Positions 932 through 8,357 of a DNA stretch of 9,805 nucleotides are shown here, piece by piece. Numbering within the stretch: the first letter of the stretch is position 1; the number at the start of each line of letters is the position of its first letter. Source of the DNA: Candidatus Sumerlaeota bacterium (lineage in GTDB: Bacteria > CG03 > SLGR01); the NCBI GenBank assembly GCA_007136585.1, contig SLGR01000021.1, positions 1-9,805 of the forward strand. The letters run 5' to 3'. The translations under genes and the position numbers were made by a program. The notes under the pieces are model-generated. The model did no database searches and was not told where the DNA came from. It saw only the letters and a program-made list of their open reading frames with translations.

Positions 932-1376
932 GAATCTCTTTGAACTTAGAAAGCGCTCCCCGTTTCCCATCCCGACAGTTGATATAATCATCAACCTTAA
1001 CGGCAGTATAGTTCTTGTAAAACGGAGATACCCGCCTCTTGGCTGGGCCCTCCCCGGAGGGTTCCTTGATAAGGGGGAGAGCCTTGAGGAGGCGGCCCTC
1101 CGCGAGGCCCGCGAGGAGACCGGCCTGGAGCTTGAAGGGCTCAGGCAGTTCCGAGTCTATTCCGACCCTTCAAGGGATCCCAGGTTTCATACTGTTACAA
1201 CTGTCTTTACAGCTTCGGGCAGGGGAGAGCCCGGGGCCGGGGATGATGCCGCATCAGTTGCGGTTTTCGGCCGGGATGAGCTTCCCGAAAAAATGGCTTT
1301 TGACCACAGGGATATACTACAGGATTATTTTTCTTCTAATACGGGGCGTGGGTGTTCAGGGGGTGGAAAAAAATAA
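921..1376 (+). CDS. Nudix hydrolase, ADP-ribose pyrophosphatase-like
   Basis: This 151-residue protein has a complete Nudix box at residues 47-69. It begins GFLDKGE and ends REAREETGL, matching GX5EX7REUXEEXGU with every catalytic Glu present. These residues bind the divalent metals that hydrolyse an X-linked nucleoside diphosphate. The segment after the box, [17 protein letters not shown] (80-96), resembles the 'DPGRDPRGH' stretch of ADP-ribose pyrophosphatases, so ADP-ribose is the likeliest substrate; other nucleotide sugars remain possible. I chose the ATG at 921 rather than the TTG at 912 because GGAGGG at 905-910 sits 10 nt before 921. The start lies inside the end of the upstream glycosyltransferase-like gene, consistent with translational coupling. 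The C-terminus is a low-complexity Gly/Lys tail, and the stop codon lies within the stem of the terminator. Expected to be cytosolic, acting in nucleotide housekeeping. Confidence 0.88.
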
Positions 1377-1409
1377 CGCCGGTATTGGGGGGTAACACCG
1401 GCGTTATTT
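1371..1409. terminator. Bidirectional rho-independent terminator between convergent genes
   Basis: The arms AAATAACGCCGGT (1371-1383) and ACCGGCGTTATTT (1397-1409) are perfectly complementary over 13 bp with a 13-nt loop. On the + strand the stem is followed by TTTAAATTTT, and on the - strand it is followed by a run of T (complement of the A-run at 1367-1373). It can therefore end both the Nudix transcript (+) and the operon ending with udp (-). The Nudix stop codon (1374-1376) is inside the left arm. Confidence 0.88.
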
Positions 1410-1423
1410 AAATTTTACATCAA

Positions 1424-2167
1424 TCAGGTCCTGCTGTCAAGTATCTTTACAGCTTCAATAGCCACCCGGATAGCTTCGTCAATTCCCACTTTCTTCTCAA
1501 TAGGTTTATCCTCATAGGTTTTTCCGATTATGGCCAGGACCTCACCGGCCATTGTTTTCTTCAGATGGGAAACGATAAATATGGCGGAGCTCTCCATTGA
1601 GGTGGCAAGGACATGCGAGCGGTACCAGGCCTCCCAGCGCTGCCTGTGGTACTCGGCTATAGGGAGGTCATTGTTTCCTTCTGTATAGAAGGCGTCCTTG
1701 CAGTGAACTATCCCCGGATGAGCCCTTACATTTAATTTTTCCGCTGCCTCTATGAGCGCGTTAGTAACCCTTATATCCGCTACCGCGGGAAACGATAGGG
1801 GCACATACTGCCGGGAGGTCCCGTCTTCCCTTACAGAGGCGGTTGATATAACGACATCCCCCAGATCCACTTCCTTCTGCAGAGACCCCGCTGTCCCCAC
1901 CCTTATGAAAACCTCCGCCCCGACTTCAACCAGTTCCTCCACACAGATGGCGGCGGAAGGGCACCCAATGCCGGTGGAGGTGGCGGAGAGCTTTATTCCG
2001 TCAACTGTTCCCGTATACGTGCAGTACTCCCTGTTATTTGCGACCTCTTCAGCGTTATCAAAATACCCCGCGATTTTTGAGACCCTTCCCGGGTCTCCGG
2101 GAAGGAGAACATATTTTCCGACATCACCCTTCCTTAGACCCACATGGTACTGAATATCACTTTCCAT
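1424..2167 (-). CDS. udp: Uridine phosphorylase (PNP/UDP family)
   Basis: This 247-residue protein is close in length to E. coli Udp (about 253). It is expected to catalyse the reversible reaction uridine + Pi = uracil + ribose-1-phosphate in the cytosol as a trimer-based hexamer. Visible family motifs are LLPGDPGRV (21-29, phosphate site), STGIGCPSAAICVEEL (64-79), FIRVGTAG (87-94, phosphate-binding Arg and base/ribose loop), LGDVVISTASVREDG (102-116) and ATSMESSAIF (188-197), whose Met-Glu contacts ribose. SFPAVAD (125-131) also matches the uridine phosphorylase branch. An AAAGGA ribosome binding site lies about 8 nt before the ATG at 2165-2167. It is the last gene of the operon, 41 nt after the cyclase-family gene and ahead of the shared terminator. 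This placement suggests it supplies free pyrimidine base to the operon, although a generic salvage role is also possible. Related nucleoside substrates such as deoxyuridine cannot be excluded. Confidence 0.88.
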   Translation of the reverse strand: MESDIQYHVGLRKGDVGKYVLLPGDPGRVSKIAGYFDNAEEVANNREYCTYTGTVDGIKLSATSTGIGCPSAAICVEELVEVGAEVFIRVGTAGSLQKEVDLGDVVISTASVREDGTSRQYVPLSFPAVADIRVTNALIEAAEKLNVRAHPGIVHCKDAFYTEGNNDLPIAEYHRQRWEAWYRSHVLATSMESSAIFIVSHLKKTMAGEVLAIIGKTYEDKPIEKKVGIDEAIRVAIEAVKILDSRT

Positions 2168-2208
2168 AATATTATCCTTTCTTTAAATCTCCGGTATTCC
2201 TTAAACCT

Positions 2209-2973
2209 CTAAAACTCAAATGCAGCTATACGGCATATGCACGATTCAAGCTCCACTGCCCTCCAGGGGAAGGCTCCTATCCATATTCGCCTGTTATTCA
2301 GCTCATCTATATCCCCTCCCAGGTTCTCCGCGTGAACTATCCCCGCCGGGAAAAGCTTAAGGTGCATTACCTGATAATACTCCTTCTGCGGGAATACCTC
2401 TTCCCAGGGCCTCCCCAGCTTCTCCTGCGCCTCTTCGAAGAGTCCCGGGTGCCAGTCCTTCAGGATGGTATTCATGGGGTGGTCGGCGGATCCGCAGTCA
2501 ACTCCTATCCACTTAAACCCCATCTCCAGGGCCCATTTGTAGAAATCCGGGGAAGGGCCCGGGTGTTTAACGAAGTACCTTAGTTCATCCGACCCCTCCT
2601 GGTCCCAGGCGTACCTGTGATAACCCGTATTTATAACGAGAATATCGCCTTTTCTGATCTCCGCTTTGGAGGTAAGCATATCAGGGGAGTAGAGGCTGTA
2701 ATCTTCAACCTCGCCGGAGATATCCACAACCACTCCCTCGCCGCACCACTCCTCAAGCGGAGTATCGCCTATTGAACGTCCCGAGGCATGGAAGTGTATC
2801 TCCCCGTCCATATGTGTGCCGACATGGTTGGAGGTCTTTATGAGCTGCCCGTTGGCCCCCTGACCCATATGCGCCCCGGCTATCCTCTTGAAGTACTGTA
2901 TGCCCAGCGGCATATAGCTCGGCCAGGGCGGTGTATGAACGCTCAGCCTCTGGGTAAGATCGTAAATTTTCAT
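2209..2973 (-). CDS. Cyclase-family metal-dependent hydrolase (PF04199; kynurenine formamidase / isatin hydrolase-like)
   Basis: This 254-residue protein carries the family signature HVGTHMD (50-56, HxGTHxD), whose His and Asp residues bind the metal (Mn or Zn in characterised members). Other conserved pieces are HPGPSPDF (137-144), the second metal-site region VDCGSADHP (158-166) and AENLGGDID (215-223). Known relatives hydrolyse amides or open lactam rings, for example N-formylkynurenine and isatin; the name 'cyclase' comes from a polyketide protein. There is no signal peptide, so the enzyme should be cytosolic. The start is secure, with AAAGGAG about 6 nt before the ATG at 2971-2973. It lies 14 nt after the amidohydrolase gene and upstream of udp. 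In this context I infer ring opening of a cyclic ureide or imide made by the neighbouring amidohydrolase. No tryptophan-catabolism gene is nearby, which argues against a kynurenine role. The substrate is not determinable from sequence. Confidence 0.85.
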   Translation of the reverse strand: MKIYDLTQRLSVHTPPWPSYMPLGIQYFKRIAGAHMGQGANGQLIKTSNHVGTHMDGEIHFHASGRSIGDTPLEEWCGEGVVVDISGEVEDYSLYSPDMLTSKAEIRKGDILVINTGYHRYAWDQEGSDELRYFVKHPGPSPDFYKWALEMGFKWIGVDCGSADHPMNTILKDWHPGLFEEAQEKLGRPWEEVFPQKEYYQVMHLKLFPAGIVHAENLGGDIDELNNRRIWIGAFPWRAVELESCICRIAAFEF

Positions 2974-2987
2974 CCTAAGCTCCTTTC

Positions 2988-4250
2988 TCAGTTAATATAC
3001 AGTTTCTTCTCGGTCCTTGTAGTTGCGGCTACCCGGCCCCTGGAGATAACGTAAAGGCGGTCCGCCAGGTTCCTGAACGCTTCCTGAACGGTTTCCGCAT
3101 CAAGTATATTGATATCGGCCGGGTTCCCTTCGGATATGCCGTAATTCTCCAGCCTCATAAGGGCGGCGCTGTTGAAAGTGGGCATATCAAAGAGGGTCTC
3201 TATCTCCCGGGGGAGGGTGAACTGGGCCGCGTGGGCCGTTATCATCCCTACCTCAAGGAGGTCCTCCCTCCCCCAGGTGGGGTAGAAGGTATCCTTGAGA
3301 CAGTCCTGTCCGTAAGCCACGTTAACCCCGGCTTCAATCAGCTCTTTTACCCGGGTAATGCCCCTTCTTCTCGGCTCCCTGTCAGAGCGCCCCTGCAGCA
3401 TAAGGTTCGTAGCCGGGTTTGTTATCATATTTACCCTGGCTTCCCTGACCAGTTTTATAACCTTCCCGGCGTAGCTCTCATCGTAGGCCGCCAGGGCGCA
3501 GGTGTGCCCGGCGGTTACCCGGCCGTGGTACTTCTCTTTTATGGTTTTGGCAGCCAGATACTCGAGAGTCCTTGCCCCGGGGTCGTCCGTCTCGTCAACA
3601 TGCATATCTATATCAGCGTCAAAATTCCGAGCAAGCTCAAAACAGAGGTCTATATGTTTTCTTGAATCTTCCGGGGTGAGTTCGTTGTAGGGCATACCCC
3701 CCACGACGTCGGCCCCTTTTTTCATCGCTTTCTTCATAAGTTTAAGGGTCCCGGGGTCTTTCAGTATCCCCTCCTGAGGAAAGGCGGTTATCTGTATATC
3801 CGCCGTATGGGAGTATCTCTTCCGGGTCTCCAGGAGCCCCTCCAGCCCCTTAAGCTCAACTATGGTATCTATATCAACGTGTGTCCTGAACTTTGTGACT
3901 CCGCCCAGGATTCCCATCTCTATGACACGACCCGCCCTCCGGGCGACCTCGTCCGGGTCGTACTCTTTTTTCTTCTCCCAGATTATCTCTATGGCTTCGT
4001 TAAGCGTCCCGCTCTTATTTGCGCGGACCTCTTCAGATATAAGGGCCTTATCCATATGCAGGTGAGGGTCTATGAACGAAGGCGCGGCAAGTTTTCCTCC
4101 TGCGTCTATGACCTGAGCGCCACCGTCCGCCTCCGCGGGGATATCACCCGAGCCTGCGGGGAGTATCTTTTCTATATGACCGTTATTAACCAGTATGGTT
4201 ACATTATATTTCTTATCCCTGAGCCTGGCGTTTTTTATTATCATATCCAT
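2988..4250 (-). CDS. CodA-like amidohydrolase (cytosine deaminase family, substrate uncertain)
   Basis: This 420-residue protein is similar in length and along its whole length to E. coli cytosine deaminase CodA (about 427). Metal ligands and catalytic residues are visible: H63 and H65 (DPHLHMD), Q159 (FPQEGI), H217 and E220 (DMHVDETDD), H249 (TAGHTC) and D316 (YGQDC). The RRRGITRVKE segment (294-303) is also CodA-like. Two substrate-pocket positions differ: CodA has D314 after the metal Asp, where this protein has C317, and CodA W319 corresponds to F322. The fold and hydrolytic deamination chemistry are well supported, but cytosine as substrate is not; creatinine, isoguanine or triazine-like rings are used by relatives. 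The gene starts 3 nt after allG ends. The ribosome binding site is weak (GGAG about 12 nt before the ATG at 4248-4250), and a second ATG lies two codons in. It is followed 14 nt later by the cyclase-family gene, consistent with successive reactions. Confidence 0.85.
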   Translation of the reverse strand: MDMIIKNARLRDKKYNVTILVNNGHIEKILPAGSGDIPAEADGGAQVIDAGGKLAAPSFIDPHLHMDKALISEEVRANKSGTLNEAIEIIWEKKKEYDPDEVARRAGRVIEMGILGGVTKFRTHVDIDTIVELKGLEGLLETRKRYSHTADIQITAFPQEGILKDPGTLKLMKKAMKKGADVVGGMPYNELTPEDSRKHIDLCFELARNFDADIDMHVDETDDPGARTLEYLAAKTIKEKYHGRVTAGHTCALAAYDESYAGKVIKLVREARVNMITNPATNLMLQGRSDREPRRRGITRVKELIEAGVNVAYGQDCLKDTFYPTWGREDLLEVGMITAHAAQFTLPREIETLFDMPTFNSAALMRLENYGISEGNPADINILDAETVQEAFRNLADRLYVISRGRVAATTRTEKKLYIN

Positions 4251-4253
4251 AAA

Positions 4254-5642
4254 TTAACTTATCTCCATTTCTTCCAGAGCCTTTGAAAAACATTCAAACG
4301 GAGCTCTCAGCAGCCCGGCACCCACCTGACCTATGCCGGGTTCCTTATGGGCTATACCCGTATTTATAACCGGGGAGATCCCTTTCTCAAGGACTTTCAG
4401 TATATCTATCCCCGTGGGGGTTCCCGCAAAATCCAGCTGAGGTATCTGGAACCGCGTACTCCTTCCGTGTGTTATGAGCCCCATTTCCTTTGTGTATCTC
4501 AGAGCATCCGAAGGGGTGCCCCCTACAAACTTCACTATGGCCGGAGCAGCAGCCATAGCGAACCCTCCTATCCCGGCCACCTCGCTTATGGTAGAGTCAC
4601 CTATATCGGGGTTGGCGTCAGCGCTGGAGAAACCCGCAAAGAAAAGCCCTTCGGGCATCCCGGCCGGCGCGGTAAACCATTTTTCAGCGCACCCGGCCAC
4701 CCGTATCCCTATCTCGGTCCCGTTCCGGGCCATAGCCGAGAGTATGGTTGAGTTTTCAAGGCCGAGTATTGAATCAGCCGACGCCTTACAGGCAGCCATT
4801 GAGAGGTTGAGGTAAAAATGCGGGTTGGAAGCTATAAAATCAAAAATATCACCAACCAGGGAGGTCTCTTTCTCCGTCCTCAGTATAAGCGGTGTTAACT
4901 CCTTTAAGAGTATCCCTGTAGCGGCCACGTTTCTGTTATGGCATTCGTCCCCCATCTGCAGGGCCTGGGCCGTGATATTGGAGACGTTTATTCCGTCTTT
5001 TGCTGATCTTACGGCCCTTCCAAGGGCAGGTCCCAGGATATTCTGCATCCATCTTAGCCTCTCAATGACTTCTTCGCTGCAGGCCCCGAAACGAAGAACC
5101 TTTCCCAGACCCTCGTTAAGCGAGCAGAAGGCTGTATTTCCGAAACTCCGGTTTTTTACAGCCCATACGTACATTGACGGGGAGAGAACCCCTGCCATGG
5201 GGCCCACCGCGTTATGGTGATGGCACGGAGAGAAACGTATCTCCCCGCCGGCCAGGATATCAAAAGCCTTACGGGTATCCGGAGCCCAGCCTTCATAGAC
5301 GCAGGCCCCGGCCATCGCCCCGCGCATCGGCCCGCACATTTTCTCCCAGCTGACCGGAGGTCCGGCATGGCAGAGAACCTTCCCGTTTAGGCCCTCCACA
5401 GCTTCGGAGGCTCTGAGAACATCAAAGAGGACCGGTTCCGAAGTATTTAGGCGTTTAAGGGCCTCGTCGTTTGCCCTGGCTGTTTTTGCGGATCCGGCGA
5501 GTTCTTCAAGTTTCTCCGTGAGCTCCTTCGGACAGGCAGGAGGTCTCCAGTCAAGCTGAATAAACCTGACCCCGGTCCTGCGGAAAGTTTCGGCGAACCT
5601 TTCCAGCCCTATGTTTATTACCGCGGGTCTCTTAAAGCTCAT
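4254..5642 (-). CDS. allG: DUF1116 protein, AllG/YlbE-like subunit of oxamate carbamoyltransferase-type enzyme
   Basis: This 462-residue protein is recognised as the DUF1116 family by PPVSWEKMCGPMRGAMAG (95-112), the His-rich FSPCHHHNAVGPMAG (137-151), and QMGDECHNRN (229-238). The HHH triad and GDECHNRN are strongly conserved in the family and are candidate catalytic or ligand residues. In E. coli the homologue (YlbE, renamed AllG) is required with AllF and AllH for oxamate carbamoyltransferase, which interconverts oxalurate + Pi and oxamate + carbamoyl phosphate. Its ATG (5640-5642) overlaps the stop of allF in an ATGA arrangement, so the two are probably translationally coupled and made in matching amounts. 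It is longer than E. coli YlbE by roughly 40 residues. No signal peptide or membrane segment is evident. Family assignment is firm; the actual ureido substrate here is inferred only from context. Confidence 0.85.
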   Translation of the reverse strand: MSFKRPAVINIGLERFAETFRRTGVRFIQLDWRPPACPKELTEKLEELAGSAKTARANDEALKRLNTSEPVLFDVLRASEAVEGLNGKVLCHAGPPVSWEKMCGPMRGAMAGACVYEGWAPDTRKAFDILAGGEIRFSPCHHHNAVGPMAGVLSPSMYVWAVKNRSFGNTAFCSLNEGLGKVLRFGACSEEVIERLRWMQNILGPALGRAVRSAKDGINVSNITAQALQMGDECHNRNVAATGILLKELTPLILRTEKETSLVGDIFDFIASNPHFYLNLSMAACKASADSILGLENSTILSAMARNGTEIGIRVAGCAEKWFTAPAGMPEGLFFAGFSSADANPDIGDSTISEVAGIGGFAMAAAPAIVKFVGGTPSDALRYTKEMGLITHGRSTRFQIPQLDFAGTPTGIDILKVLEKGISPVINTGIAHKEPGIGQVGAGLLRAPFECFSKALEEMEIS

Positions 5643-7114
5643 CTCGCCCCCTTCACCGTCTCGGCCGCGAACGCCGCGGCCTTTGCGCTGGATGAAAAGA
5701 GAAAGACCCCGTGTTTCTTAAGAGTTTCCGTCTGTCTGTCAAGGCCCTGTGGGTCGCCCCGGGTTCCGCAGACAGAGGCTGCCAGCACCCTGCCGGCGGG
5801 TATTTTTCCCAGGGTTTCTTCCATAGCTCCGGCAGGGTCGGGGTGCGCCCCGTGCCCCAGTACTATATCAAAGAGTATCAGTGAGATGGTTTCCGCGCCA
5901 GCTTCTTTTAAGAGCGCGGTGTTTCTCTGAGCGGGGTCTATCATTGGATGGGGTTTTCCCCTGGTAAACTCGTCCGCCCCGAAATCCGTCAACTTTACGC
6001 CTTCGCCCTCAGGGGTTACCCCGAGCATATTTATAACAGCAGCAGCTTCGTCTTTGAGAGAGCCTCCGCAGAAGAACCCTCTTATGTTTTTCGGGTTTCC
6101 GGTGCTGGAAGCTTTTAGGGCCGCCTCCCTGACCTCCCGGGTTACAGGGTTATACCCTGAGGGGTTTCTTCCCGCTGAAAGATGGCAGGCCGCCTTGGCG
6201 GTCTCTTCCAGGGTGGAAGTAAAATACAGGTTCCCGGAATTTTTCTCCCCCGGCTTTTCAAGGAAACAAATCACCGCGGGTTTTCCGGTCTCCGAAGCTT
6301 TTTGGATTATCTTTCCGGCAACCCCGGGGTGGGGGGGTTTCGATATTACGACTATTACGCGGGTCGCCGGATCGCCTGATAACCTCTCAAGAGCGGATAT
6401 CATTGAGAGACCTCCCACCTCAAGACTGAGGTCTCTTCCCCCGGTCCCGAGGGCATGGGTTATCCCGCGCCCGGACTCGGCTATAAGGGAGGTTACCTCC
6501 TGAAGACCCGTCCCCGATGCCGCGGCCAGACCTATATCTCCCGGTGGAACCTGGTTTGCGAACCCCAGGGGAACAGAGTTTATTATAGCGGTTCCGCAGT
6601 CAGGCCCCATAAGGAGCAGTCCGAGTTCGGATGCCCTTTTCTTAAGGCTTACTTCTTCTTCAATGCTTACGTTATCTGAAAATATCATACAGTTAAGCCC
6701 GCTCTCAAGGGCCTTTTTTGCCTCCCGAGCGGCATACTCTCCCGGAACGGATATAAGTGCGAAATCCGCATCCGGCATTTCCAGCAGAGCCTCCTTAATG
6801 GTAAGGGGGGTCTCTTCCCCGTCCGGGGAGGTCTCACTCCTCCCCTCAAAACTTTCTTCTATAAGTTTCCGGGCCAGGTTTACAGATGCTGCCGTATCGG
6901 CCTTTACGGCTATAAGAAGGTCCCCGGGCCCGGCTTCTTTTCCGGCATCCGTAAGAAGCCCCGAGTTTTTCAGTATCTCAATATTGGCCGGGGTGCCCAT
7001 CATAAGGGATATATTATTAATCCCGTCTATTGTTTCAGCCTTTGAAGCCGTTTCCATAAGAAAGACCGAATCCCTGTAACTGTTTTTGATTATGATATTC
7101 TCAGTAACGCCCAT
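5639..7114 (-). CDS. fdrA: FdrA/AllF-like acyl-CoA synthetase-fold subunit of oxamate carbamoyltransferase-type enzyme
   Basis: This 491-residue protein has the FdrA pattern, related to succinyl-CoA synthetase subunits. The N-terminal part contains SLMMGTPANIEILKNSGLL (36-54). A Rossmann-like CoA-binding segment follows, with LLLMGPDCGTAIIN (166-179) and IGLAAASGTGLQEV (194-207), then GITHALGTGGRDLS (217-230). The second half resembles the ligase-type domain (LILFDIVLGHGAHPDP region). It is shorter than E. coli FdrA (about 555). E. coli FdrA, renamed AllF, works with AllG and AllH as oxamate carbamoyltransferase in anaerobic allantoin use, giving carbamoyl phosphate for ATP synthesis. The start is supported by AAGGGG about 6 nt before the ATG at 7112-7114, even though this makes the gene overlap the end of allH by 25 nt. 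The stop overlaps the allG start by 4 nt. The older idea that FdrA suppresses protein-export defects does not explain this context. Confidence 0.87.
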   Translation of the reverse strand: MGVTENIIIKNSYRDSVFLMETASKAETIDGINNISLMMGTPANIEILKNSGLLTDAGKEAGPGDLLIAVKADTAASVNLARKLIEESFEGRSETSPDGEETPLTIKEALLEMPDADFALISVPGEYAAREAKKALESGLNCMIFSDNVSIEEEVSLKKRASELGLLLMGPDCGTAIINSVPLGFANQVPPGDIGLAAASGTGLQEVTSLIAESGRGITHALGTGGRDLSLEVGGLSMISALERLSGDPATRVIVVISKPPHPGVAGKIIQKASETGKPAVICFLEKPGEKNSGNLYFTSTLEETAKAACHLSAGRNPSGYNPVTREVREAALKASSTGNPKNIRGFFCGGSLKDEAAAVINMLGVTPEGEGVKLTDFGADEFTRGKPHPMIDPAQRNTALLKEAGAETISLILFDIVLGHGAHPDPAGAMEETLGKIPAGRVLAASVCGTRGDPQGLDRQTETLKKHGVFLFSSSAKAAAFAAETVKGAR

Positions 7115-7794
7115 GCGAACCCCTTAAGCATATATAAGCCGCTTGAATCACCGTAGTTTTTCAGTTTCTGAATTATATTCCGTATCCCGGGGGAATCCCC
7201 GGAAGATGTGCTGTTAATAAGAGCGAGGATATCCTCTCCGGCTCTTTTCCGGAGGGCAAATTCAAGATAATAACGGCTTATCGGTGAGGTCTTTTCTGTA
7301 TGGGGAGAGACCGCAGAGCTTATCATCTGAAAGAGTTCCCGAGAGAAGGCCGCCGCGGCGGAGAGGGCTCCCCCCAGGAAATCGTCGCCGGCAGGGGTAA
7401 GCCCCGGACCCAGCCCCAGAATATCAGCGAAGTTGTTCTCTGAGGCTTTTCGCGTAAGTTCTTCGGAAAAACGATTGTCTGCTTCACTTGTGCATCTTTC
7501 AATAATCTCCGGTATATCGCACTTGCAGGAAAGCGGAAGCTCTCTGATCCGGGAATCCCAGGTTCTGGGAGAGTCTGCCTGGAATACAAAATTTTCAAAA
7601 AGTTCTTTTCCGAAGTTCTCATAACAGATATTTACCGAACCCGGCAGACCTGATCTTCTGCTTGCGAGAGCTGTCAGGAAATTTCCGTTTTTTTCAAGCA
7701 GGCAGGCTGTGGAGTAGAGACTGACCGGAAGAGATCCCGACAGGAGCTCCCGGTCAAGGTGTTTATCCTGTTTAAGAACTTTAAGTTTCAGCAT
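7090..7794 (-). CDS. allH: DUF2877 protein, AllH/YlbF-like subunit of oxamate carbamoyltransferase-type enzyme
   Basis: This 234-residue protein carries the diagnostic DUF2877 motif LGLGPGLTPAGDDFLGG (126-142), where the paired Asp and Gly-rich loop probably contact phosphate or metal. In E. coli the homologue (YlbF, renamed AllH) is the third component of oxamate carbamoyltransferase. It is the first gene of the operon, whereas in E. coli it comes after fdrA and ylbE. Nothing like a Shine-Dalgarno sequence precedes the ATG at 7792-7794. Instead the start overlaps the stop of an 11-codon ORF that has a good ribosome binding site, so translation is probably coupled. An alternative is that a frameshift separates the true N-terminus (beginning at 7823) from the body. 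The end overlaps fdrA by 25 nt. The N-terminal half is poorly conserved, so the exact start is less certain than the family. Confidence 0.82.
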   Translation of the reverse strand: MLKLKVLKQDKHLDRELLSGSLPVSLYSTACLLEKNGNFLTALASRRSGLPGSVNICYENFGKELFENFVFQADSPRTWDSRIRELPLSCKCDIPEIIERCTSEADNRFSEELTRKASENNFADILGLGPGLTPAGDDFLGGALSAAAAFSRELFQMISSAVSPHTEKTSPISRYYLEFALRKRAGEDILALINSTSSGDSPGIRNIIQKLKNYGDSSGLYMLKGFAWALLRIS

Positions 7795-7823
7795 ATTAAA
7801 AGCGGAGTGTCAGTAAGTCTCAT
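7788..7823 (-). CDS. Putative 11-codon leader ORF upstream of and overlapping allH
   Basis: The ATG at 7821-7823 is preceded by GGGAG (7831-7835) with a 7-nt spacer, the best ribosome binding site at the head of the operon. The frame reads MRLTDTPLLIC and stops with TGA at 7788-7790, in the sequence ATGCTGA that also holds the allH ATG (7792-7794). This looks like stop-start reinitiation, with the leader delivering ribosomes to an allH start that lacks its own site. The peptide has no run of one amino acid suggestive of attenuation. It could also be the real start of allH displaced by a frameshift or base-call error. Existence of the ORF is seen; its translation is inferred. Confidence 0.45.
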   Translation of the reverse strand: MRLTDTPLLIC

Positions 7824-7832
7824 AAATAATCT

Positions 7833-7848
7833 CCCGGGAAGAACCGGG
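7833..7848 (-). promoter_or_regulatory. Short GC hairpin covering the leader ribosome binding site
   Basis: In the operon transcript, CCCGG (7848 to 7844) can pair with CCGGG (7837 to 7833) across a 6-nt loop. The 3' arm contains the GGG of the GGGAG ribosome binding site for the leader ORF, so folding would hide part of it. The stem is only 5 bp but all G-C. It may moderate translation, or it may be a chance palindrome. Confidence 0.3.
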
Positions 7849-7880
7849 TTGCGGCCAAATTTTTTTGAACTGTCTGAAAA

Positions 7881-7910
7881 ATAATAGCAAAAAGTTAAAT
7901 CTCCTGTCAA
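7881..7910 (-). promoter_or_regulatory. Sigma-70-type promoter of the allH-to-udp operon
   Basis: On the - strand a perfect -35 TTGACA (7910 to 7905) is followed after 18 nt by TATTAT (7886 to 7881). Transcription would start near 7874, about 50 nt before the leader ORF. It is the only strong promoter seen ahead of the six tightly spaced genes. It faces away from the tmRNA promoter. Confidence 0.7.
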
Positions 7911-8011: not shown

Positions 8012-8357
8012 GGGGGCGAAATGGGCTCGACAGGAATTGTAGGGACTTGAGCAGCAGGCAGCGTTTGACGGTAACGCATAAACCGCTCAAAAACAGACGA
8101 AGACGTAAGTCTCGCACTGGCTGCTTAATTTAAAGTAGTCCGCCCAGGCGGCTTAAGCCTAACGGGCTGCCAGGGTGTCATAAAGAAAGGCTGGCTGTTC
8201 AGGCTTCTCCCCGGGTCTGTTCAGTGAGAAAACTGGGGAAAACCTTCCGCTGCGTCTGTTCCGTTACGTTGCGGAAGAAATTAAATCGGAACTAAGCCTG
8301 TAGATACTCGGGTTCCGTGATTTCTGGACGCGGGTTCGATTCCCGCCGCCTCCACCA
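8012..8357 (+). ncRNA. ssrA: tmRNA (transfer-messenger RNA)
   Basis: The gene is about 346 nt with both conserved ends. The 5' end GGGGGCGAAATGGGCTCGAC matches the tmRNA consensus. The 3' end GGACGCGGGTTCGATTCCC gives the T-arm, followed by GCCGCCTCCACCA with an encoded CCA. The acceptor stem is 7 bp (8012-8018 with 8347-8353), and its third pair is G-U, the identity mark for alanyl-tRNA synthetase. Pseudoknot PK1 is visible: GCGTT (8061-8065) with AACGC (8073-8077), and CGGT (8069-8072) with ACCG (8082-8085). A tag frame ending in LALAA and TAA follows at 8126-8128. A later stem is CTTCCGC with GCGGAAG (about 8243-8277). tmRNA with SmpB rescues stalled ribosomes and tags the products for proteolysis. 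It is a one-piece tmRNA and reads divergently from the catabolic operon. Confidence 0.97.
8093..8128 (+). other. tmRNA proteolysis-tag reading frame
   Basis: The frame ending at TAA (8126-8128) reads TDEDVSLALAA from 8093, preceded by AAA and TCA codons. The hydrophobic LALAA end is the usual protease signal. The first translated codon is unclear: no Ala or Gly codon is in frame just after PK1. Candidates are AAA (8090), ACA (8093) and GAC (8096), the last lying 10 nt after PK1, close to the 11 nt of E. coli. Each has A nearby at the -4 position. Confidence 0.75.

Follow-up and report, generated by a model that had tools for sequence, protein, structure and literature searches.

Which acid does an AllFGH-type carbamoyltransferase cleave when its genes stand beside those of a CodA-like amidohydrolase, a cyclase-family hydrolase and a uridine phosphorylase? 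This question is raised by contig SLGR01000021.1 of a Candidatus Sumerlaeota bacterium (contig C138 of a genome of 1.88 Mb in 257 contigs, 88% complete), of which a stretch of 9,805 nucleotides, hereafter the window, was analysed. AllFGH of Escherichia coli uses an acylurea, oxalurate, to form carbamoyl phosphate (PMC11326118). The window carries on its minus strand (1424-7794) a single tight operon, allH-allF-allG-codA-like-cyclase-udp and, judging from its genomic context, there is about an even chance that it encodes the central steps of an oxidative (barbiturate) pyrimidine pathway that works by phosphorolysis. The more general scheme, in which a nucleobase ring would be opened to an acylurea acid and the latter phosphorolysed to carbamoyl phosphate, is likely.

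The operon and its conservation

The operon is compact: the AllH and AllF genes overlap by 25 bp and those of AllF and AllG by 4 bp, while the remaining gaps are of 3, 14 and 41 bp. All three carbamoyltransferase subunits are encoded together, as recognised by PF06545, PF11392 and the FdrA model, with AllF being 40% identical to E. coli AllF and 42% to YahF, and AllG 49% identical to E. coli AllG and 46% to YahG. The six minus-strand genes with a promoter and a terminator, as described by a first-pass annotation, are confirmed by the open reading frames, by the Pfam and NCBIfam matches and by their recurrence in relatives. Note that the terminator-like stem lies outside the loop limit of the hairpin scanner, hence the direct reading of the sequence.

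The phylum is represented by 16 genomes in the collection, that of the window included, and AllG was found in 12 of them, among which all six of good quality. The order allH-allF-allG-COD-CYC-udp (where COD and CYC stand for the CodA-like and cyclase genes) is kept in the phylum relatives L028, L030 and L032, the last with a contig end inside allF, and L033 of the same phylum differs by the lack of COD only. Outside the phylum, L045 and L194 read allH-allF-PRTase-allG-AOR-COD-CYC-udp (PRTase: phosphoribosyltransferase-like; AOR: aldehyde:ferredoxin oxidoreductase), L195 reads AOR-COD-CYC-udp, with the AllG of its genome on another contig (L214), L050 reads PRTase-allG-MoaD-COD-CYC and L063 allG-COD-CYC. 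Because this order recurs within and outside the phylum, the core gene block is not a local accident. The first-pass annotation had made its scheme depend on the conservation of these neighbours, and the cyclase, CodA-like and udp genes are indeed kept beside allFGH in relatives and outside the phylum.

A model of the cyclase subfamily, with the cyclase counted at high score, and the Pfam AllG model were also run over the same 386 genomes. As a whole, 39 genomes are cyclase-positive, 49 have AllG and 37 have both (Fisher p 1e-38), whereas outside the phylum 26 of the 27 cyclase genomes carry AllG (p 4e-30); the cyclase model was made from AllG-linked members, and these counts are possibly biased toward such members. 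The two genes are at most 10 kb apart in 28 of the 37 genomes with both. This association outside the phylum, together with an order conserved in the phylum and recurring in unrelated metagenome-assembled genomes (MAGs), argues against loose co-transcription, in which AllFGH and its neighbours would serve unrelated substrates. Udp, the CodA-like gene and AllFGH are each found apart in some genomes (G007 and G008, for instance, have genuine orthologs of the CodA-like gene at loci of their own), which speaks for such an arrangement; it is nevertheless considered very unlikely.

Table 1. Features of the allFGH operon, with positions in the window
Feature	Position	Strand	Evidence
allH-like (PF11392), carbamoyltransferase subunit; first gene of the operon	7090-7794	-	Pfam AllH 73 bits, E 3e-20
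allF/fdrA-like, carbamoyltransferase subunit	5639-7114	-	NCBIfam FdrA 475.7 bits (cut-off 433); PDB 3dmy (FdrA) E 9e-83
allG-like (PF06545/DUF1116), carbamoyltransferase subunit	4254-5642	-	Pfam AllG 313 bits; PDB 3clq E 7e-129
CodA-like amidohydrolase (COD), predicted nucleobase deaminase	2988-4250	-	PDB cytosine deaminases E 5e-79
PF04199 cyclase-family hydrolase (CYC), distinct subfamily, predicted ring-opening amidase	2209-2973	-	Pfam Cyclase 116 bits
udp, uridine phosphorylase	1424-2167	-	TIGR01718 equivalog 286.5 bits (cut-off 280.3); PDB 3qpb E 9e-71
Sigma-70-like promoter, TTGACA-18-TATTAT with TG extension	7881-7910	-	Consensus match only
Terminator-like: 11-bp perfect stem, 13-nt loop, T-rich tail; ATAACGCCGGT...ACCGGCGTTATTTT	~1370-1407	-	Read by eye

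Concerning the surroundings of the operon, a transfer-messenger RNA gene (8012-8357, plus strand; Rfam 145 bits, missed by ARAGORN) diverges from its promoter, and a NUDIX gene and a membrane-protein gene lie beyond udp; none of the three looks operon-related. In L032 (3525-4870), L028 and L030, two genes that the window lacks, one for a thiolase and a small one downstream of it, are located between udp and its neighbours and are convergent to the operon. In 13 loci, including L045:7896-8978, L047, L029:6546-7631 and L051, the gene of the phosphoribosyltransferase-like protein (320-360 aa) separates allF from allG; the protein gave a weak PRTase-CE match.

Partner genes and the predicted route

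When aligned with CodA, the CodA-like protein keeps the metal ligands and the catalytic Glu, His and Asp (PHLHMD, FPQEG, MHVDE, TAGHT and GQD), and the cyclase keeps H50, H54, D56 and H60 as well as a subfamily signature. The structure model of the cyclase (mean predicted local distance difference test score, pLDDT, of 88) has isatin hydrolase as its nearest fold (Z 23.3; root-mean-square deviation 2.7 over 220 residues; 20% identity), and the protein scores below the TIGR03035 cut-off for kynurenine formamidase, or arylformamidase (46.9 vs. 223 bits). Fluorescent proteins among its PDB matches were discarded as spurious.

The usual partner of these genes is a molybdenum (Mo) hydroxylase: xanthine-dehydrogenase-type genes are present at 18 of the 27 cyclase loci outside the phylum, within the stretch read (a raw count), and the large subunits of the cluster-linked enzymes form one clade. 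The same 27 loci hold a nitrilase-family hydrolase in seven cases, a class III CoA-transferase in seven and an NCS2 nucleobase permease in five, those of L201 and L074 being clearly nearer to uracil permease than to xanthine permease. MdcA (malonate decarboxylase alpha) is encoded directly 3' of allG in L083 and L066 (815 and 728 bits, respectively) and occurs in four of the 16 phylum genomes, in three of which the cyclase-linked type of nitrilase-family amidase (CN_hydrolase) comes directly after. In the genome of the window (contig C162) and in G009, G010, G011 and G014, the CN_hydrolase amidase follows SucC- and SucD-like genes, and these amidases share 39-49% identity with those linked to the cyclase. 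One amidase is accompanied by three unrelated acid-activating enzymes, one of which belongs to a malonate-specific family.

Two further proteins were noted around such loci. A conserved protein of ~230-260 aa with no Pfam match repeatedly adjoins the cyclase/AllFG clusters (L079:11335-12021, with homologs in L038, L189, L192, L195, L199, L201 and L203), and the genes for a thiolase and for an OB-fold protein of the DUF35 type sometimes come after it. Five phylum genomes, G003, G004, G005, G006 and G009 (L145:9543-10838, L225, L226, L229 and L230), encode a CodA paralog, 37-38% identical to that of the window, whose gene immediately precedes that of a Mo hydroxylase; this paralog is devoid of the metal His and of the catalytic Glu and was not counted as a link between deaminase and hydroxylase.

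As for the partners encoded elsewhere in the genome, the first-pass annotation had reported carbamate kinase as absent, which holds for the window but not for the genome: an ArcC-type kinase of 314 aa is present on contig C242 (356.8 bits, just below the model cut-off of 358.25), and nearly all phylum members have one. Three Mo hydroxylases are also encoded in this genome, and that of contig C196 is the sister of the one found directly after allG in L029.

From these genes, assigned at the family level, we infer the following reactions and substrates. Uracil would come from uridine through Udp, and from cytosine or a related aminated base through deamination by the CodA-like enzyme. A Mo hydroxylase encoded outside the operon, for which that of contig C196 is the best candidate, would oxidise uracil to barbiturate, and the PF04199 cyclase would open the latter to ureidomalonate, just as isatin hydrolase opens the ring amide of isatin. 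AllFGH would convert ureidomalonate and phosphate to malonamate and carbamoyl phosphate, a step that would be chemically conservative because ureidomalonate, like oxalurate, is an acylurea ending in a carboxylate. Finally, the carbamate kinase of contig C242 would make ATP from carbamoyl phosphate, the nitrilase-family amidase of contig C162 would turn malonamate into malonate, and the adjoining SucCD-like ligase would give malonyl-CoA, a role that MdcA or the class III CoA-transferase would fill in other genomes. This exact uracil-barbiturate-malonate chemistry could as easily prove wrong as right.

The catabolic scheme of the first-pass annotation is thus partly right. Ring opening to an N-carbamoyl acid by the cyclase, phosphorolysis by AllFGH and the feeding of pyrimidine bases by Udp and the CodA-like enzyme probably stand, whereas the ring oxidation indicated by the Mo hydroxylases had not been foreseen. 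Among the substrates then listed, the gene neighbourhoods favour ureidomalonate, while the creatinine-derived one has no support there. The latter belonged to a route in which the CodA-like enzyme would yield N-methylhydantoin and the cyclase N-carbamoylsarcosine, to be phosphorolysed by AllFGH; the enzyme classes match, but the neighbourhoods examined showed no recognisable creatinine or sarcosine gene and neither Udp nor the Mo hydroxylase would have a reason to be there, so that its probability is close to negligible.

The linked oxidoreductases also bear on a reductive route, in which the cyclase would open dihydrouracil to N-carbamoyl-beta-alanine and AllFGH would produce beta-alanine and carbamoyl phosphate. 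Its uracil would be supplied by the CodA-like enzyme and Udp, the AOR of the AOR variant could be the reductase, and phosphorolysis of an alkyl ureido acid with phosphate is known for YgeW (PMC12507026). However, the linked oxidoreductases are Mo hydroxylases, MdcA and the amidase do not fit beta-alanine, and nothing resembling a dihydropyrimidine dehydrogenase gene was seen in the window or in the clusters read (a genome-wide search was not made), which makes this route distinctly unlikely. The likeliest function of the operon is an oxidative pyrimidine pathway that conserves energy, a variant of known pathways, with the scales evenly balanced as to whether it is the actual one.

Pyrimidine or purine substrates

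The strongest rival explanation has oxalurate as the AllFGH substrate, like in E. coli, within a purine or allantoin-type catabolism where the cyclase would hydrolyse a ring of purine origin, with the CodA-like enzyme deaminating a purine such as isoguanine. In line with this, AllG and AllF are about equally similar to E. coli AllFG and YahFG, the xanthine dehydrogenase family is found in related clusters, and SsnA-, YgeW-, YgeY- and XdhD-like purine-type genes are present elsewhere in relatives. Three observations are shared between this rival and the case against the oxidative pyrimidine pathway: three of the NCS2 permeases encoded in clusters match xanthine permease better than uracil permease, the class III CoA-transferase is closest to oxalate CoA-transferases, and a glycerate kinase gene precedes that of AllH in three phylum genomes, like in E. 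coli allantoin metabolism. On the other hand, Udp passes the uridine phosphorylase equivalog cut-off, MdcA indicates malonate rather than oxalate, and no allantoin gene was recognised beside the AllFG-cyclase clusters read. The purine explanation is therefore regarded as unlikely.

Other points weigh against the oxidative pyrimidine pathway, the weakest links of which are the uracil oxidation step and the exact substrate. The former is weak because the operon itself has no oxidoreductase gene and because L045 and L195 carry a tungsten-type AOR as their oxidoreductase, whereas no AOR-type enzyme is known to hydroxylate uracil. The Mo hydroxylase of contig C196 is just 49% identical to that of L029, both being outside the cyclase-linked clade. 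Cytosine as the CodA-like substrate also appears among the weakest links, since the protein falls under the curated NCBIfam cytosine-deaminase cut-offs (382 bits for a cut-off of 438, and 331 for one of 483) and has a Cys, where CodA has an Asp, directly after the metal Asp. At the malonate end, SucCD and class III CoA-transferases serve other acids too, and MdcA was not found in the 88% complete genome of the window.

PF09663 (barbiturase/cyanuric acid hydrolase) matched none of the 16 phylum genomes in a search that gave no positive control, and a barbiturase of this family was set aside as the ring opener here. In the archaeal MAGs L065 and L067 (2273-3379), a PF09663 gene of the cyanuric acid hydrolase type follows allFG; it is closest to cyanuric acid amidohydrolase and was retained as an analogy only for the barbiturate step. 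Because the archaeal ring opener beside AllFG is of this type, AllFGH variants may, by analogy, serve several acylureas, which again weakens the assignment of a single substrate.

Several oxidoreductase and purine-type loci were observed besides. In COD-CYC-udp variants outside the phylum, an AOR (L045:10470-12365, L046 and L195:2532-4448) or a MoaD/ThiS-like protein (L050:1918-2196) occupies the usual place of the Mo hydroxylase. L143:1-5274 (G014) holds an XdhD-like Mo hydroxylase whose neighbour looks by eye like a SelD-type selenophosphate synthetase, suggesting a selenium-dependent hydroxylase. Clusters of ornithine transcarbamoylase (OTCase)-family (YgeW-like) genes and carbamate kinase in L147, L148, L209, L210 and L024 suggest that purines are fermented in the phylum of the window by a route of the uric acid type; those of L147/L148 and L024 also have a threonine-synthase-like gene, and those of L147/L148 YgeY- and SsnA-like genes.

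Wider meaning and comparison with known systems

Taken beyond the window, the data tentatively suggest, with a chance slightly under even, a widespread and undescribed oxidative pyrimidine pathway of uncultured bacteria, in which a Mo hydroxylase would be joined by a new "barbiturase" family within PF04199 and by AllFGH as a ureidomalonate carbamoyltransferase. Uracil and cytosine would then give ATP by way of carbamoyl phosphate, together with malonyl-CoA, and not urea and malonate. The literature searched, with most subscription journals outside it, contained nothing linking PF04199 or AllFGH to barbiturate or ureidomalonate. If true, AllFGH-type enzymes would gain a second role besides allantoin use, and probably a more widespread one, while a function would be provided for a tightly conserved PF04199 subfamily that 39 of the 386 sampled genomes, roughly one in ten, contain. 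It would also reveal a way for some uncultured bacteria to conserve energy while using the pyrimidines of dead biomass.

The oxidative pyrimidine pathway proceeds through uracil dehydrogenase, barbiturase and ureidomalonase. The predicted route would have uracil, barbiturate, ureidomalonate and malonate in common with it, but would differ by a PF04199 ring opener in place of the AtzD/barbiturase fold and by phosphorolysis to carbamoyl phosphate in place of urea release. With isatin hydrolase and kynurenine formamidase, both of PF04199, the cyclase of the window has its fold and metal-site motif in common, whereas identity is ~20% and the cyclase belongs to a conserved subfamily of its own, tied to AllFG. 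The reductive uric acid pathway with YgeW and YqeA (PMC12507026) likewise leads anaerobic nucleobase breakdown to ureido phosphorolysis and carbamate kinase; YgeW, however, is an unrelated enzyme of the OTCase family, the rings and intermediates are different, and the related genes are found elsewhere in the phylum genomes.

E. coli carries two versions of the three-subunit enzyme: that of allFGH, encoded alongside the allantoin genes, and that of yahEFG, encoded with the carbamate kinase YahI and the amidohydrolase YahJ. The product of allFGHK (oxamic transcarbamylase, PMC11326118) is likewise made of AllF, AllG and AllH and passes carbamoyl phosphate to a carbamate kinase, but its genes sit with those for allantoin and with allK, whereas the operon of the window comprises the CodA-like, cyclase and udp genes and has its kinase on another contig. 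The closest known layout, which the first-pass annotation had left out of its comparison, is yahEFG-yahI-yahJ: as in the window, contiguous AllH, AllF and AllG homologs are followed by a CodA-family amidohydrolase gene. The yahDEFG-yahI-yahJ cluster, for which no assigned function was found, has the ankyrin YahD and the carbamate kinase YahI and is devoid of cyclase and udp, while the window has neither kinase nor ankyrin gene, and YahJ is just ~24-30% identical to the CodA-like protein. Finally, the yah-like clusters of many Bacillaceae combine genes for an ankyrin protein, a permease, a carbamate kinase and a CDA-type deaminase, which supports deamination upstream of AllFGH.

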